A DNA stretch of 64,000 bases from Halorhabdus sp. CBA1104. GTDB taxonomy: Archaea; Halobacteriota; Halobacteria; Halobacteriales; Haloarculaceae. Numbering within the stretch: the first letter of the stretch is position 1; the number at the start of each line of letters is the position of its first letter. Positions 29,121 to 59,905 of this stretch are shown in pieces. The stretch covers positions 2,046,001-2,110,000 of the forward strand of contig NZ_CP033878.1 in the NCBI RefSeq assembly GCF_009690625.1. The letters are read 5' to 3'. Below the pieces are notes generated by a model that saw only the letters and a list, made by a program, of their open reading frames with translations, did not search any database and had not been told where the DNA came from. Position numbers and translations under genes: made by a program.

Positions 29121-30479
29121 TCAGTCCCGGTCGCCGGCACCGAGGGCACTTTCGCCGACTTTCTCCGAGCCTTCGATGCGTGCTTGGCCGTCCATGTACG
29201 GGCGTAACGCCTCGGGGACGGTCACGGTGCCGTCGTCGTTCTGATAGTACTCCAGAATCGCCACCAAGACGCGGGGCAGCGCGACCCCGGAGGCGTTCAG
29301 CGTGTGGAGATACTCGGCCGATTCGTGCCGTTCTGGCCGGTAGCGTAGCCCGGCCCGGCGGGCCTGGAAGTCCTCGAAGTTCGACGCCGAAGAGACCTCG
29401 AGCCAGCGACCGCCCTCCGCCGGACCCTCCGCCATGTCGTCGCCGGGGGCCCAGACCTCGATATCGTAGGTTTTGGCCGACGCAAATGTCAAATCACCAG
29501 TACAGAGATCGAGTACGCGATAGGGGAGGCCCAACCGCTGGAGGACTGCTTCGGCTTCATCGAGCAATCCGTCGAGACGTGCGTCGCTGTCGTCGGGTTC
29601 GACGAAGTTGACCAACTCCACCTTGTTGAACTGGTGGACACGAACGATCCCACGGGTCTCGGTGCCGTGCTCGCCGGCTTCCTGGCGGAAGTTCGGGGTG
29701 TAAGCCTGGTGTTTCAACGGCAGATCCTCAGAGAGGAGGATCTCGTCGCGATACATGTTCGTCACCGGCACCTCGGCGGTCGGACACAACCAGAGGTCCT
29801 CGTCTTCGAGTTTGTAGGCGTCGTCGGCGAATTTGGGGAGTTGACCCGTCCCTGTCATCGACTCACTCGAAACAGGGATCGGCGGAAACACCTCTTCGTA
29901 CCCCTGCTCGCGGTGGATATCACGCATGAACTGGATGAGGGCGTGTTCCAGCCGGGCAGCCTCGCCCTTCAAGAAGTAGAAGCCGCCGCCCGAGACTTTC
30001 GCGCCGCGTTCGAAGTCTAAGATGTCAAGTTCCTCGCCAAGGTCGTAGTGTGGGGCCACGTTCTCGGGGAGATCTCGGCGCTCATCGAAGCCCCAGCGGC
30101 GGACTTCGACGTTATCGCTCTCGTCGTCACCCTCGGGAACGTCGTCCTGTGGGATATTCGGAATTTCGAGGAGGCGCTGTTCCAGCTCGCGCTCGAGTTC
30201 GTCGGCGCGTTCCTCGACGTCTTGAAGTTCGGTCTTGAGTTCCTGGGAGCGCTCGATAGCGTCCTGGGCAGCCTCGTCGTCGCCGTCCTGTTTGAGCTGG
30301 CCGATCTTCGAAGAGACTTCGTTGCGCTCGTGTCTGAGGTCGTCGCCGCGGGCCTTCAACTCGCGCCACTCCTCGTCGATCTCCAGGATGGCATCGAGAT
30401 CGACGTCAGTGACGCCGCGGGCCGCGAGCATCTTCCGGACGTCTTCAGGGTGCTCGCGAATGTACTGGCGTGGTAACAT
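29121..30479 (-). CDS. serS: Serine-tRNA ligase
   Basis: A 452-residue class II synthetase. The N-terminal coiled-coil arm (about residues 30-105, KARGDDLRHERNEVSSKIGQ and on) binds tRNA-Ser. The core has motif 2 FRQEAGEHGTETRGIVRVHQF, KVELVNF, and motif 3 GVALPRVLVAILEYYQ. ATG at 30479 (MLPRQYIREHPEDVRKML) is the correct start. A long untranslated leader of about 90 nt precedes it, beginning from a promoter block shared with the gene at 33243. Confidence 0.97.
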   Translation of the reverse strand: MLPRQYIREHPEDVRKMLAARGVTDVDLDAILEIDEEWRELKARGDDLRHERNEVSSKIGQLKQDGDDEAAQDAIERSQELKTELQDVEERADELERELEQRLLEIPNIPQDDVPEGDDESDNVEVRRWGFDERRDLPENVAPHYDLGEELDILDFERGAKVSGGGFYFLKGEAARLEHALIQFMRDIHREQGYEEVFPPIPVSSESMTGTGQLPKFADDAYKLEDEDLWLCPTAEVPVTNMYRDEILLSEDLPLKHQAYTPNFRQEAGEHGTETRGIVRVHQFNKVELVNFVEPDDSDARLDGLLDEAEAVLQRLGLPYRVLDLCTGDLTFASAKTYDIEVWAPGDDMAEGPAEGGRWLEVSSASNFEDFQARRAGLRYRPERHESAEYLHTLNASGVALPRVLVAILEYYQNDDGTVTVPEALRPYMDGQARIEGSEKVGESALGAGDRD

Positions 30480-30858
30480 GGACGCGGATTCTCGGTGGCG
30501 TCCCAAAACCGTATCGTTCTGGCCGTCGCCACGGCTGCTGACTGACGGCACAGCCGCTTTCAGCGAAGTGTCCCGGAGAAACCCCGTCTACATCTTCACC
30601 TTGTAACCAGAACCACTTAAAGGAAACCGCGATCGTCATCCAGGGCCGATTGGGCTGCCGTCAGGTGGCCTGTACCGGGTTGTGGACGAACGGAATCCAG
30701 CGGTATCAGAGGCGCTCGCCGTCCCACGACGTGGACCATGGAGCCGCGATGACGCTGCGATTCGACCACGCCTGGCGTCACCTTGGGTGACAGGTGGTGG
30801 CAGTTACACGCGCGAACCTCCGTCGAGTCCAGCCGAGGCGTCGTTGCTCGGGATGGAG
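30480..30858. other. Intergenic region upstream of serS
   Basis: Holds the serS leader (30480-30570), the repeated promoter block (30571-30622) and about 235 bp with no supportable gene. An inverted pair GTCACC/GGTGAC (about 30777-30791) could form a small hairpin near the uracil-DNA glycosylase 3' end and might act as its terminator. Confidence 0.4.
30571..30622 (-). repeat. 52-nt promoter repeat, copy A (serS side)
   Basis: Read on the minus strand this block starts CTTTAAGTGG and ends TTTCTCCGGGA. It matches 33124-33175 on the plus strand at 51 of 52 positions. It contains a TATA-like CTTTAAG and extends into the presumed transcript start. The identical part stops sharply at both ends. 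Confidence 0.9.
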
Positions 30859-31443
30859 TCAAAAGTCGCCCAGTTCCGCTTGCCCGCCGTCGCCGGCCAG
30901 GTCGCTCGCTTGCTGGATGGTCGCGTCGAAGGTTTCGCGCTGACTCCGATCGTACAGCGTCGCGGCAGGATGAACACACACCAGCACACGCCGGGTCGTC
31001 CCTCTGATCTCGACGTCTTCTATCGAGCCGGCTTCGTTGGTGACGGCAACGTCTCGCCCGAGCAGGTGCTCGCCGGGTACTTTTCCCAGCGTGACGATCA
31101 CTTCGGGGTCGACGATCTCGATCTCGCGTTCGAGGTACTGTCGACAATGCTCCAGTTCTTCGGTCGTCGGATCGCGATTCTCCGGTGGCCGACACCGCAG
31201 ACAGTTAGTGATGCGTACGTCCGCGCGGGCGAGTCCCGCGTCCCGCAATCCCTCGTCCAGTACGCCCCCGCTCCGGCCGACAAAGGGTTCGCCCCCCTGA
31301 TCTTCCTGCTCGCCCGGGGCCTCACCGACCAACAGCAAGTCGGCGTCGGCGGGGCCAACGCCGTCGACGATCCGCGAGCGCGACTCGACGAGCGCCTCGC
31401 AGCGTCGACACCCCCTCACGGAGAGGCCGTCCATGTGTTCCAT
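30859..31443 (-). CDS. Uracil-DNA glycosylase, family 4/5 type
   Basis: A 194-residue protein that removes uracil from DNA. Motif A (LLVGEAPGEQEDQGGEPFVG) and motif B (VHPAATLYDRSQRETF) are clear. Four Cys (CRRC near the N-terminus and TNCLRCRPP at mid-protein) can hold a 4Fe-4S cluster. ATG at 31443 or 31434 are both possible. The longer frame upstream overlaps the DUF99 gene in another frame and is not coding. Confidence 0.92.
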   Translation of the reverse strand: MEHMDGLSVRGCRRCEALVESRSRIVDGVGPADADLLLVGEAPGEQEDQGGEPFVGRSGGVLDEGLRDAGLARADVRITNCLRCRPPENRDPTTEELEHCRQYLEREIEIVDPEVIVTLGKVPGEHLLGRDVAVTNEAGSIEDVEIRGTTRRVLVCVHPAATLYDRSQRETFDATIQQASDLAGDGGQAELGDF

Positions 31444-31501
31444 AGCCGGGTCTGGGGCGCGGGGCGGCAAAAGCGTCGCTATCGCTCCCGAGCCGTGTGC
31501 T

Positions 31502-32080
31502 CTAGTCTCTCGATCGACTCCCGCTGTCGTCTTCGAACCGTTCGTCGGCAGCTCTGGCGGCCAGTCGAGCCACTCGGAGTGGTTCGGGTCGCCCGCCGTC
31601 GGGCGTAAACGCGGCGAGGAGTTCTCGGGCCTCCGCGTGATCACAGCCGACCTGCCGGACGAAGACCGTCTCGCCGTTGACACTGACGGACTCTCGTGTC
31701 GGTTGTGCCCGGTAGGTGGCCAGCCGCCAGGCGAGTGCTTCGCCGTCGAATTCCTCACGGAGCGTCGCTTCGAGGCCCGAACTGTCCTCGAAGGTGACGG
31801 CAACGACAGGCAGCCCCGTCTCCTCGTGGAGCCGCGGCAGGTCGAAGAAGTTGAACCACGCGGGCGCGATCCCCGCGAGCAAAAGCGAGCGGACGTCCGC
31901 TCGGTCTAAGCGATCGACCATCCCGAGGACGGCCGCGGTCGCGTCACGCCCGCCGACGGTACACCGCCCGAAGACGAAACCGTCGGCGACACGACTCGCA
32001 CGGACCACTGCGCCACAGAGCGTCGACTGCTCGTCGACGAAGGATTCGGCGATCCCGAGGACACGGACGCCGGATTTCAC
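31502..32080 (-). CDS. DUF99 / UPF0215 family protein
   Basis: A 192-residue protein of the archaeal DUF99 family, sometimes called endonuclease dU. Visible hallmarks are VRVLGIAESFV, DGFVFGRCTVGGRDATAAV, LLLAGIAPAWFNFFDL and VVAVTFEDSSGLEA. It lies next to and in line with uracil-DNA glycosylase, which suits a role in DNA repair. The activity claim rests on family annotation, not on motifs I can prove here. Confidence 0.85.
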   Translation of the reverse strand: MKSGVRVLGIAESFVDEQSTLCGAVVRASRVADGFVFGRCTVGGRDATAAVLGMVDRLDRADVRSLLLAGIAPAWFNFFDLPRLHEETGLPVVAVTFEDSSGLEATLREEFDGEALAWRLATYRAQPTRESVSVNGETVFVRQVGCDHAEARELLAAFTPDGGRPEPLRVARLAARAADERFEDDSGSRSRD

Positions 32081-32152
32081 GACAGGAACTGTCCCGAGTA
32101 GTCGACAAGGTGCCTCTCGAAGGCGGTCCCGGAGACGGCGACGCTGCTCACG

Positions 32153-32332
32153 TTACGTGTTCTCCTTGATGTCGGATAACTTATCGAGCAGTTCGTCGTT
32201 CGAGGCGGTAAACTCGAATTCGACGTCACCGTTGTGTGTGTTTTCCGCGGCGTTAACCCCTTCATCATCGTCGAAATCGGCATCGAGGTCCTGGTTCTCC
32301 TGTTCGGATTCGTCGTAACTCCCGAACCCCAT
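32153..32332 (-). CDS. Small acidic haloarchaeal protein (DUF5786-like)
   Basis: A 59-residue protein too short for most gene finders. It begins MGFGSYDESEQENQDLDADF and ends in a short amphipathic helix (ELLDKLSDIKENT). The MGFGSYDESEQE start is strongly conserved in small haloarchaeal proteins I associate with DUF5786. It is almost entirely acidic. Function is unknown. It precedes the DUF99 gene on the same strand. Confidence 0.75.
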   Translation of the reverse strand: MGFGSYDESEQENQDLDADFDDDEGVNAAENTHNGDVEFEFTASNDELLDKLSDIKENT

Positions 32333-32461
32333 ATCGTGTGATGCTATGACGTTCGTGGTGAAAAATCACACGCACACTCCACGTTCCATGCTAACGCGAC
32401 ACGACAGAGCGCATCGTAGACCACCGTCAGACTCAACAGCGCGCTGGCCCCACGCTCGTCT

Positions 32462-33067
32462 ATGGACGTGTACAATGTCACAGCCGACGCGGAGACGTTC
32501 ACCGCCAACGCCTACCTGGCGACCGGCGAGCGTCCGACGCTCGTCGATGCCGGTGCGATGGCTGGTGTCGTCGACGTGATCCGGAACGATACCGACACAG
32601 TGGACGCCGTCGTGCTCACTCACCAGCACGGCGATCACGTTGCCGAACTCGATGCGGTCCTCGATGCCTTCGACGCGGATCTGTACGCCGAGGCTGGGCA
32701 TCCACGCCGGACGGACGCGCTCGCAGACGGCGACACGCTCCAGATCGGCGACGAGTCGTTCGAGGTCATCGCCACGCCCGGGCACGCCGACGATCACGTC
32801 TCGCTGGTCAGTGAGTCGGCGCTGTTCTCGGGTGACGTCGTGGTCCACGACGACGGTGCCTTCGAGAACGGCAGTTTCGGGCGGACGGACAAGCCGGGCC
32901 AGTCCCGTGAGCGACTTATCGAGAGCATTCGCGAGATCCTCGATCGGCTACCAGCGGGAGTCGAACACATGTATAGCGGTCACGGCGGTGTCTTCCACGG
33001 TGACGTCCGGGATGTCGTCCAGACGGCACTACAACGAGCCGAGCGACGAGAGCCCAAATACGACTGA
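32462..33067 (+). CDS. MBL-fold metallo-hydrolase
   Basis: A 201-residue metallo-beta-lactamase-fold enzyme. The zinc motif is LTHQHGDHVAEL (H-x-H-x-D-H), then ATPGHADDH, SGDVVVHDD and the final YSGHGGVF His. The family includes glyoxalase II-like thioesterases. ATG at 32462 has MDVYNVTADAETFTANAYL. It is divergent from the DUF5786-like gene. Confidence 0.9.
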   Translation: MDVYNVTADAETFTANAYLATGERPTLVDAGAMAGVVDVIRNDTDTVDAVVLTHQHGDHVAELDAVLDAFDADLYAEAGHPRRTDALADGDTLQIGDESFEVIATPGHADDHVSLVSESALFSGDVVVHDDGAFENGSFGRTDKPGQSRERLIESIREILDRLPAGVEHMYSGHGGVFHGDVRDVVQTALQRAERREPKYD

Positions 33068-33123
33068 ATACCTGGACAATCCGCTCTCCCGACCGAGCTT
33101 CACCCGAGTTGTTGCCCGCATCT

Positions 33124-33175
33124 CTTTAAGTGGTTCTGGTTACAAGGTGAAGATATAGACGGGGTTTCTCCGGGA
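33124..33175 (+). repeat. 52-nt promoter repeat, copy B
   Basis: This is the plus-strand partner of 30571-30622, with a single base difference near its middle (G in copy A, A in copy B). It sits 68 bp before the ATG at 33243 and includes a TATA-like CTTTAAG. Flanking sequences of the two copies do not match. Confidence 0.9.
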
Positions 33176-33242: not shown

Positions 33243-33983
33243 ATGAACGGCGAGGGCGTCGATAGCAGTGGGCAGGTCGCCGAACCGGCCGAGCGTGAGC
33301 GTCGCGAGTGGCGAAAGCAACGAGACGTCTCCGCCGAGCCGGGCGACGGGGCACTGTCGCGAGCGGAAGCCCGACGGGACGAACTGATCCGGCAATGGGA
33401 CATGGTGACGCCCAGTGCGACCACGATCGGTCGCCCGGATCGCCCCGGTGACGACCTCGATGACTCACTGCGGCGACTCCACAACGAGCAACATCCCGCC
33501 ATGGCCGGCCACGCCGAACGGATGCACCGCCTCGATAAGGCCCGGATCACCCACGCGCTGTGTAACGCCCTGGATCTGACGCCCTGGGAACGCGATCGCG
33601 TGCTTGGCATCGTGACCGAGATCGACCTCACGGCGTTTGGCAGCCAGCGAGCGATCCCCAAGGTCGCTCTAGTGGTCATCCAGCACGTCGTCGACAGCGA
33701 GCGCCAGGGGGCACTCGGCCTGGACGACCCCGAGCGACTCGCCGCACTGACGCCCGACGAGATGGCCTCGCTGTACGATCACTTCCAGTCGATCACCGAC
33801 GACGAGCGATACCGGCAGTTGATCGACAGCTACGGGCTGGACATGACCAGCGTCAACCGACTCGATCGGGTTTTAGACGAGCAACTCGACGAGCAGGGGC
33901 TTCGAGACGCCGTCTTCGGTCGCTCCGGTCAAAACGTCAAGCGGTGGGCAATTGCCGAGGAAAGCGACGCGGACACTGCCTAG
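33243..33983 (+). CDS. Conserved haloarchaeal protein, annotated in relatives as RNA polymerase subunit epsilon
   Basis: A 246-residue soluble protein. The conserved core is HAERMHRLDKARITHALCNA, LDLTPWERDRVLGIV and DLTAFGSQRAIPKVALVVI, followed by a charged C-terminal part. I recall this family being annotated in haloarchaea as DNA-directed RNA polymerase subunit epsilon; I see no catalytic motif that proves it. ATG at 33243 is preferred to the GTG at 33237. Its promoter is the repeat shared with serS, hinting at common control with translation genes. Confidence 0.6.
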   Translation: MNGEGVDSSGQVAEPAERERREWRKQRDVSAEPGDGALSRAEARRDELIRQWDMVTPSATTIGRPDRPGDDLDDSLRRLHNEQHPAMAGHAERMHRLDKARITHALCNALDLTPWERDRVLGIVTEIDLTAFGSQRAIPKVALVVIQHVVDSERQGALGLDDPERLAALTPDEMASLYDHFQSITDDERYRQLIDSYGLDMTSVNRLDRVLDEQLDEQGLRDAVFGRSGQNVKRWAIAEESDADTA

Positions 33984-58884: not shown

Positions 58885-59905
58885 GGTGCAATCCCACAAG
58901 GGTCCGTCTGAAACCCATACCGAATGTCGGATGAAGTGACTGAAACGGTGAGCTTCAACCCCACAAGGGTCCGTCTGAAACTCGTCAACTGCAATCATAT
59001 GATCGAGTACTCCCGACGCTTCAACCCCACAAGGGTCCGTCTGAAACGTGGCTCCGGTGCAAACGATGGGATCGGTCGGTCGTGCTTCAACCCCACAAGG
59101 GTCCGTCTGAAACACGGGACCATGCTATTCGATCTCGACGACCTCGACGAGGCTTCAACCCCACAAGGGTCCGTCTGAAACAGCGACAAAAGCGGGAGTG
59201 TGACACTCGGCCCGGCGCTTCAACCCCACAAGGGTCCGTCTGAAACCATGAACATGGTTTCGCCGTCCATATCCATACTATGCTTCAACCCCACAAGGGT
59301 CCGTCTGAAACCCGGGTCAGGTGTCAATAGAACAACTTGCGTGAAGTCGCTTCAACCCCACAAGGGTCCGTCTGAAACTAAGATGTCGCCGACGAACTCG
59401 TGGATGTCTGGGTCGCTTCAACCCCACAAGGGTCCGTCTGAAACGACCGAACAGGTCGTCATGAGACCGCTGAAAACTATCCTGCTTCAACCCCACAAGG
59501 GTCCGTCTGAAACCGAAACCAGAGAATCTATCGGCACGGCACAAGTCGCTTCAACCCCACAAGGGTCCGTCTGAAACCAGTCTTGGACTCCAGTTTGTAG
59601 CGGTCTGCCCACGGCTTCAACCCCACAAGGGTCCGTCTGAAACCTTCAGAATAATTAGATATGTGGTACTGTTGCGTTGCTTCAACCCCACAAGGGTCCG
59701 TCTGAAACAATGAGCCTGGGTGGCTGGGCGACGACCAACCGCCGGCTTCAACCCCACAAGGGTCCGTCTGAAACCCGGGCCACCACTTTGTCGCTGCCGT
59801 CCTCGGTGTGCTTCAACCCCACAAGGGTCCGTCTGAAACATCGTTGCGAGCGATGAACGAGAGGACGTCCCAGGAGCTTCAACCCCACAAGGGTCCGTCT
59901 GAAAC
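58885..59905 (-). CRISPR. CRISPR array, 16 repeats and 15 spacers
   Basis: The 30-nt repeat reads on the minus strand from GTTTCAGACGG to GGGTTGAAGC, like haloarchaeal type I-B repeats. Repeats start at 58885 (degenerate, 27 of 30), 58952, 59018, 59084, 59152, 59217, 59282, 59349, 59415, 59484, 59548, 59614, 59679, 59745, 59810 and 59876. Spacers are 34-39 nt. The degenerate repeat is leader-distal, so the leader and newest spacers are near 59905. Spacer targets cannot be found without a search. Confidence 0.98.

Follow-up and report, generated by a model that had tools for sequence, protein, structure and literature searches.

The DNA described here is a 64,000-nucleotide (nt) stretch of the genome of Halorhabdus sp. 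CBA1104 (NZ_CP033878.1, positions 2,046,001 to 2,110,000), which we call the window. A block of 52 nt occurs in it twice, once on each strand, as an inverted repeat whose arms (30571–30622, minus, and 33124–33175, plus) are complementary at 51 of 52 positions and 2501 nt apart. Both copies start with CTTTAAG, a TATA-like sequence, and both face outward, one to serS, the gene for seryl-tRNA synthetase, and the other to a gene at 33243 whose product is a homologue of RNA polymerase subunit epsilon. The two blocks are probably copies of an epsilon-linked—that is, epsilon-dependent—class of haloarchaeal promoter, one that is apparently new to description.

Between 30000 and 34000 the pair is by far the longest near-perfect inverted repeat, and shuffled windows put the number of such repeats expected by chance at 0. 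The genome, a single contig of 2.63 Mb, contains these two copies and no third; the next match is 14 nt long (E 1.7). Directly outside the two blocks, the sequences bear no relation to one another. An earlier inspection of the letters, which we call the sequence-only reading, had pointed to this 51/52 repeat with unrelated flanks, and arm alignment and the shuffle control bear it out; the enclosed genes that it named, for uracil-DNA glycosylase (UDG), DUF99 and MBL proteins, keep those names by family matches. In window coordinates the features are:

29121–30479, minus strand: serS, seryl-tRNA synthetase, downstream of element copy 1 (TIGR00414, 490 bits)
30571–30622, minus strand: element copy 1, serS side, TATA-like CTTTAAG at 30622–30616
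30623–33123, no strand: segment in the opposite orientation to that of all six Halorhabdus congeners, with breakpoints inside both element copies
30859–31443, minus strand: family-4 UDG, within the inverted segment (family match)
31502–32080, minus strand: endonuclease dU (Endo_dU, formerly DUF99), within the inverted segment (family match)
32153–32332, minus strand: small acidic open reading frame, within the inverted segment (gene call, kept in congeners; the label DUF5786-like comes from the sequence-only reading)
32462–33067, plus strand: MBL-fold hydrolase, within the inverted segment (family match)
33124–33175, plus strand: element copy 2, epsilon side, CTTTAAG at 33124–33130
33243–33983, plus strand: RNA polymerase subunit epsilon homologue, downstream of element copy 2 (similarity to annotated proteins)

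An element repeated across haloarchaea

When the block is compared by BLAST with 38 relatives, matches appear in all six genomes of the same genus, and in other genera and families as well. Copies lie before serS and the 33243 gene in seven of seven Halorhabdus genomes, some as tandem pairs about 110–120 nt apart, and the element recurs before the 33243 orthologue in other genera, in nearly every relative. The proposal that these two genes share outward-facing promoters is supported by this constancy. Recent duplication, offered at the same time as a possible origin, is not: the element is old and widely distributed among genera, and in every congener both genes have a copy of their own. The further thought that the block might prove a frequent genomic repeat unrelated to promoters, set down as a refuter of the proposal, was not borne out by searches of this and other haloarchaeal genomes.

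Much the same evidence bears on the notion that the repeat arose neutrally, by a recent duplication or inversion, and has no regulatory meaning. The 51/52 identity does extend over end positions that are weakly conserved elsewhere, and the segment between the arms is indeed inverted. All six congeners, however, have the element at these same two genes, the flanks being independent, and it is found in more than 100 genomes from other genera. Conservation refutes this notion as a full explanation, and we consider it very improbable.

A core of about 45 nt, TTTAAGTnnYTCTGGYnAYAAGGTG..., is present in about 42% of 292 sampled haloarchaea, in 1–14 copies per genome, often in tandem. Its layout is a TATA-like TTTAAGT, followed by nnYTCYSGYnAYAA, followed by lineage-specific letters such as GGTGAAGATATAGACGG; TCTGGTnACAAGG is a stretch within the element. 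In 29 aligned copies, TTTAAGT is for the most part invariant, as are several letters of the next stretch, and TTTAAG as a whole is nearly so. Conservation fades fast upstream, where a B-recognition element would lie and the columns are only weakly conserved, and further downstream. Two types can be told apart, A (...AAGGTGAAGATA) and B (...AACGGTTCGTAGTGAG). A second downstream motif, GTCGTTCTCGAG, was rejected as a separate entity, because in one family it extends the element, and matches in Lactiplantibacillus plasmids were dismissed as chance matches to coding sequence. A phage collection searched with the element gave no match, and neither epsilon nor the element was found in viral contigs or phages.

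The loci that we fetched contain 299 elements in 181 arrays, 80 of them tandem with spacings mostly of 97–175 nt. The element behaves like a promoter, because these arrays avoid called genes (0/181 lie within one) and mostly precede codirectional genes: for 140 of the 181 the next gene is codirectional, mostly 45–250 nt on, although the loci were picked for matching the element and so the fractions describe the class rather than an unbiased sample. Besides epsilon itself, the genes so preceded include those for ribose-phosphate pyrophosphokinase, a GNAT acetyltransferase, an AAA ATPase, an M50 protease, a cupin and a TehB-like methyltransferase, and, on plasmids, an M48 protease and a pyrimidine-dimer glycosylase. 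RlaP, of an RNA-repair-pathway nucleotidyltransferase family, is a target that adjoins epsilon in many members of family f7, which named plasmid records identify as Natrialbaceae. As a general target serS was rejected: among serS genes, only those of Halorhabdus have the element.

The arrays vary a good deal. The RlaP-family gene beside epsilon in family f7 has an element array of its own (L092, L176–L186, L199, L224 and others). Large tandem arrays can stand upstream of a single gene, as at L171 (genome G262) and L176 (G109), with up to seven copies in one array. For certain plasmid copies (L271–L274), the next several hundred bases contain no annotated gene that runs the same way. Some other copies of the element are aimed at the 3' ends of convergent genes (L088–L090, L187, L202, L213, L221), at places conserved in related species; such copies may start small or antisense RNAs, and at L088–L090 conservation continues for about 100 nt behind the element.

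Where transcription starts can be estimated from halovirus HF2, whose Class I intergenic repeats are proven promoters with TATA from −26 (PMC8707807). By that analogy, starts are expected near 30596 (minus) and 33150 (plus), and the leaders would be about 117 and 93 nt long. Because the starts are placed in this way, with TATA at −26, the invariant letters come to lie after TATA and before the start, in DNA that polymerase and initiation factors would contact and melt. This position matters to another idea, that the block acts as RNA, either as a leader element or as the start of a small RNA gene. Conservation does run 20–30 nt beyond the likely start, and the copies between convergent genes in three Halorhabdus, with their conserved trailing stretch, fit the idea as well. 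The invariant letters, though, would be in untranscribed DNA; the consensus RNA structure has no pairs (0), and no Rfam family is present at the block or nearby. We regard a role as RNA as improbable.

RNA polymerase epsilon and its link to the element

That the 33243 product is associated with RNA polymerase had been suspected from the letters, and the suspicion is supported: other members of its family are annotated as ‘DNA-directed RNA polymerase subunit epsilon’. The protein matches no model in Pfam or NCBIfam, and its identity comes from four plasmid-borne genes so annotated, 57–60% identical over about 81% of the protein (E 1e-60 to 6e-68). Annotated relatives occur in Halorussus, Halocatena and Halococcus. 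Divergent, shorter epsilon-like proteins are also found on plasmids and some chromosomes (L294, L295 and L297 among the examples), two of them with an element about 130–140 nt downstream of the gene. Epsilon is an extra RNA polymerase subunit of Halobacterium salinarum and a subset of haloarchaea whose relevance was called enigmatic in a 2021 review (PMC8305020). In Halobacterium the subunit is OE_1279R, rpoeps (Madon and Zillig 1983; Leffers et al. 1989, as cited in PMC8305020). Polymerase with epsilon transcribes native DNA efficiently and polymerase without it does not, a result reported for Halobacterium only (PMC8305020).

Element and protein were sought in the same 292 haloarchaeal genomes. 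An element model built from sequence alone (R1, E ≤ 0.01) finds 118 of them, with 1–14 matches each; a protein search with the 33243 product finds canonical epsilon in 122; and 117 have both. Four genomes (G183, G196, G254, G281) encode epsilon without an R1 match, yet they contain a variant element with the exact core pattern, for example TTTAAGTGCTTCTCGTCGCAATGGCTGATAGTGAG. This stricter, universal core pattern, TTTAAGTNNNTCYBGYNRYAA, occurs in 123 genomes, and its reversed control produces a single match in total. Three genomes have the element and no canonical epsilon: G094, and two added by the core pattern, G243 and G284. In G094 a divergent epsilon (E 3e-22) proved to be encoded, with the element about 130 nt away. 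For G284, a divergent epsilon was predicted from element letters like those of G094, and was then found by profile (E 3e-22), about 140 nt from the element. G243 gave no epsilon by profile search and is the sole element-only genome, while G198, with a 42%-identity epsilon, is the sole epsilon genome without an element. The final count is 123 genomes with both, one with the element only, one with epsilon only and 167 with neither.

The same pairing is seen within genera. In g30, two genomes have both (G212, G241) and four neither (G035, G156, G217, G232); in g51, two have both (G072, G224) and two neither (G096, G124); in g60, G094 has both and G169 and G298 neither; and in g5, G284 has both and seven genomes neither. 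Upstream of epsilon, the element lies within 450 nt in 84 of 92 distinct regions, always in the sense direction and never (0) antisense. Genome G009 has no element before epsilon and about 9–10 copies elsewhere; genus g3 likewise has none before epsilon in the five loci checked, and variant copies elsewhere. Because these copies persist, the element is not merely epsilon's own promoter carried along with the gene. Element type, A or B, follows epsilon clade rather than taxonomic family, type B being common to epsilon relatives from several families. Mapped on the epsilon tree, type changes three times, against a shuffled mean of 14 (0/500 as low), and the simple typing rule, which mis-scored some Halosimplex copies, tends to inflate the number of changes.

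What might epsilon be doing? Transcription would start from the element, we infer, and it is presumably epsilon and not another factor that reads it, as an activator or as a specificity subunit. Epsilon would let RNA polymerase, or the TBP/TFB complex, use promoters that contain the element; it would supply specificity between TATA and start; and it would drive its own gene, by autoregulation, along with a small set of further targets. In Halorhabdus, serS would have been taken into this regulon. A bolder version is that epsilon is a dedicated promoter-recognition subunit, unrelated to sigma or TFB, that reads the DNA from TATA to start and governs an autoregulated regulon in about two-fifths of haloarchaea. 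This we offer tentatively, as a possibility we would not yet bet on.

The predicted fold of epsilon is all-helical, with its confident residues at about 90–220 and modest confidence overall (pLDDT 67, pTM 0.55). Toward the C-terminus, at about 185–217, is the stretch ...YGLDxTSxNRLxRVLxxQL, in which N205, R206, L207, R209, L211 and Q214 are invariant in 35 sequences; by eye it resembles a helix-turn-helix, which we take as a lead. Two familiar identities were rejected. Homology to TFB was suggested by eye and by TFIIB/cyclin entries that recur in Foldseek, among weak rows only (E 2–5), but hhalign gives it a probability of 0.1%, and none of 35 members has a TFIIB Pfam match. As for sigma factors, one of 35 members matches Sigma70_r4 (E 0.029), and there is no sigma structure among the 50 Foldseek rows listed.

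Several observations weigh against an epsilon-dependent promoter class. The epsilon model has no meaningful Foldseek match among solved folds (best E 0.66), and Pfam recognizes no DNA-binding domain in the protein. In 8 of 92 loci, epsilon itself lacks an upstream element. Among the arrays, 38 of 181 (about 21%) run toward a convergent gene's 3' end, and for 3 of 181 no gene is in range; with about a fifth of arrays at convergent 3' ends, a promoter role before coding genes is not universal. The sensitive epsilon profile covered 32 of the genomes negative for canonical epsilon, of which only G094 and G284 were positive, and divergent epsilons that lack the element may be under-counted. Fisher p-values, calculated before the exceptions were resolved, are 2e-74 by genome and 2e-18 by genus, figures that overstate independence given the kinship of the species; because the species are related, we weigh the within-genus contrasts above them. 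Finally, co-occurrence would fit control in either direction: another factor could read the element, and control epsilon.

That last point is the main alternative. The reader of the element would be some other regulator, or a particular TFB or TBP, and epsilon no more than its most conserved target, hence the co-occurrence. Haloarchaea have many TFBs (13–27 TFIIB domain matches per genome), the element precedes epsilon more often than any other gene, and the missing DNA-binding domain is in keeping with such a scheme. It is weakened by G009 and genus g3, which keep elements though none precedes epsilon in the loci examined, by element type tracking epsilon clade, and by the gain or loss of element and epsilon together in four genera. 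Nor did we see a constant neighbor of epsilon that could be the regulator in question. On balance, we think another reader unlikely.

Epsilon could, on the other hand, be the reader and yet be a classical DNA-binding regulator, an activator or an autorepressor, rather than a specificity subunit. Repressors act between TATA and start, which is where the conserved stretch is located; the C-terminus has its helix-turn-helix look; and there are single weak matches to Trp_repressor and Sigma70_r4 (E 0.02–0.03). Against this, epsilon was isolated as an RNA polymerase component (PMC8305020), and the helix-turn-helix was read by eye, with no significant profile match. A classical regulator strikes us as rather doubtful, if respectable. 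The epsilon-dependent promoter class is the reading that we find most probable.

Inversion of the enclosed segment

The sequence-only reading had remarked that the DNA between the arms could in principle invert, and so it has: its orientation in the window is opposite to that in all six congeners, and the breakpoints fall inside the repeat. In the congeners the genes run serS (−), MBL (−), DUF5786 (+), dU (+), UDG (+), epsilon (+); in the window they run serS (−), UDG (−), dU (−), DUF5786 (−), MBL (+), epsilon (+). We place the breakpoints in or at the repeat because, in the comparison with H. salina, collinear and inverted alignments overlap over both element copies. At letters where the H. 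salina copies disagree with each other, the window copies agree, as recombination or conversion would lead one to expect. Only the close match of the last few bases seems to be recent, and recombination or conversion between the copies seems the best account of it. Shared control, recent duplication and recombination had all been entertained as reasons for the likeness of the arms; recombination between the copies has gained ground, and recent duplication has lost it.

Might the repeat bound an on/off switch for serS or epsilon that works by inversion? The enclosed segment is truly inverted relative to the congeners, as such a switch would have it. But the copies are equivalent and face outward, and therefore each gene keeps one promoter in either orientation; the segment, which encodes UDG, Endo_dU, the small acidic protein and the MBL-fold hydrolase, yielded no recombinase gene; and with six congeners all in the other orientation, flipping appears to be rare. 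We give the switch hardly any credence. The inversion is a by-product of recombination between the copies that left both promoters in place. The window is a case in which recombination between promoter copies flips DNA while the control of both genes stays intact.

Elsewhere in the window, at 58952–59905 on the minus strand, there is an array of clustered regularly interspaced short palindromic repeats (CRISPR) with at least 15 repeats (Rfam CRISPR-DR24).

Comparison with known systems

The closest promoters in design are the Class I repeats of HF2 (PMC8707807). These are repeats of 56–58 bp that contain CTTTAAGT and are conserved through the start site; they differ in their downstream sequence, CGTCTNNTAGAG, and in being viral, active in Haloferax volcanii. 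The promoters of haloarchaeal ribosomal RNA (rRNA) operons also have a TTAAGT box followed by a conserved stretch, often in several copies upstream of the 16S rRNA gene, but that stretch is CTTAAGTGTAACAGGGCACTTCGGATTGAA..., and since the sequences differ we rejected the identification of the element with rRNA promoters.

In having inverted repeats that bound a flipped segment, the window resembles the fim-type invertible promoter elements, with the differences that here no dedicated recombinase was found and flipping has no on/off effect. Compared with those elements, the window pair is best seen as the outcome of homologous recombination between two promoter copies.

For function, the obvious parallels are the regulons of bacterial alternative sigma factors of the extracytoplasmic-function type, in which, too, a dispensable polymerase-associated protein has its own type of promoter and an autoregulated gene. 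Here, in contrast, the promoter is archaeal and TATA-based, no relation to sigma in sequence or fold was found, and the function is putative. If it is real, archaea can switch sets of genes in a sigma-like manner by way of an accessory polymerase subunit, beside their multiplicity of TBPs and TFBs.

With the epsilon subunit of Halobacterium RNA polymerase, the 33243 protein shares its family annotation and a patchy distribution; the literature that we found attaches no promoter class or target to epsilon. It is four decades since epsilon was discovered in RNA polymerase purified from Halobacterium, and a promoter class of its own would make its enigmatic role directly testable.

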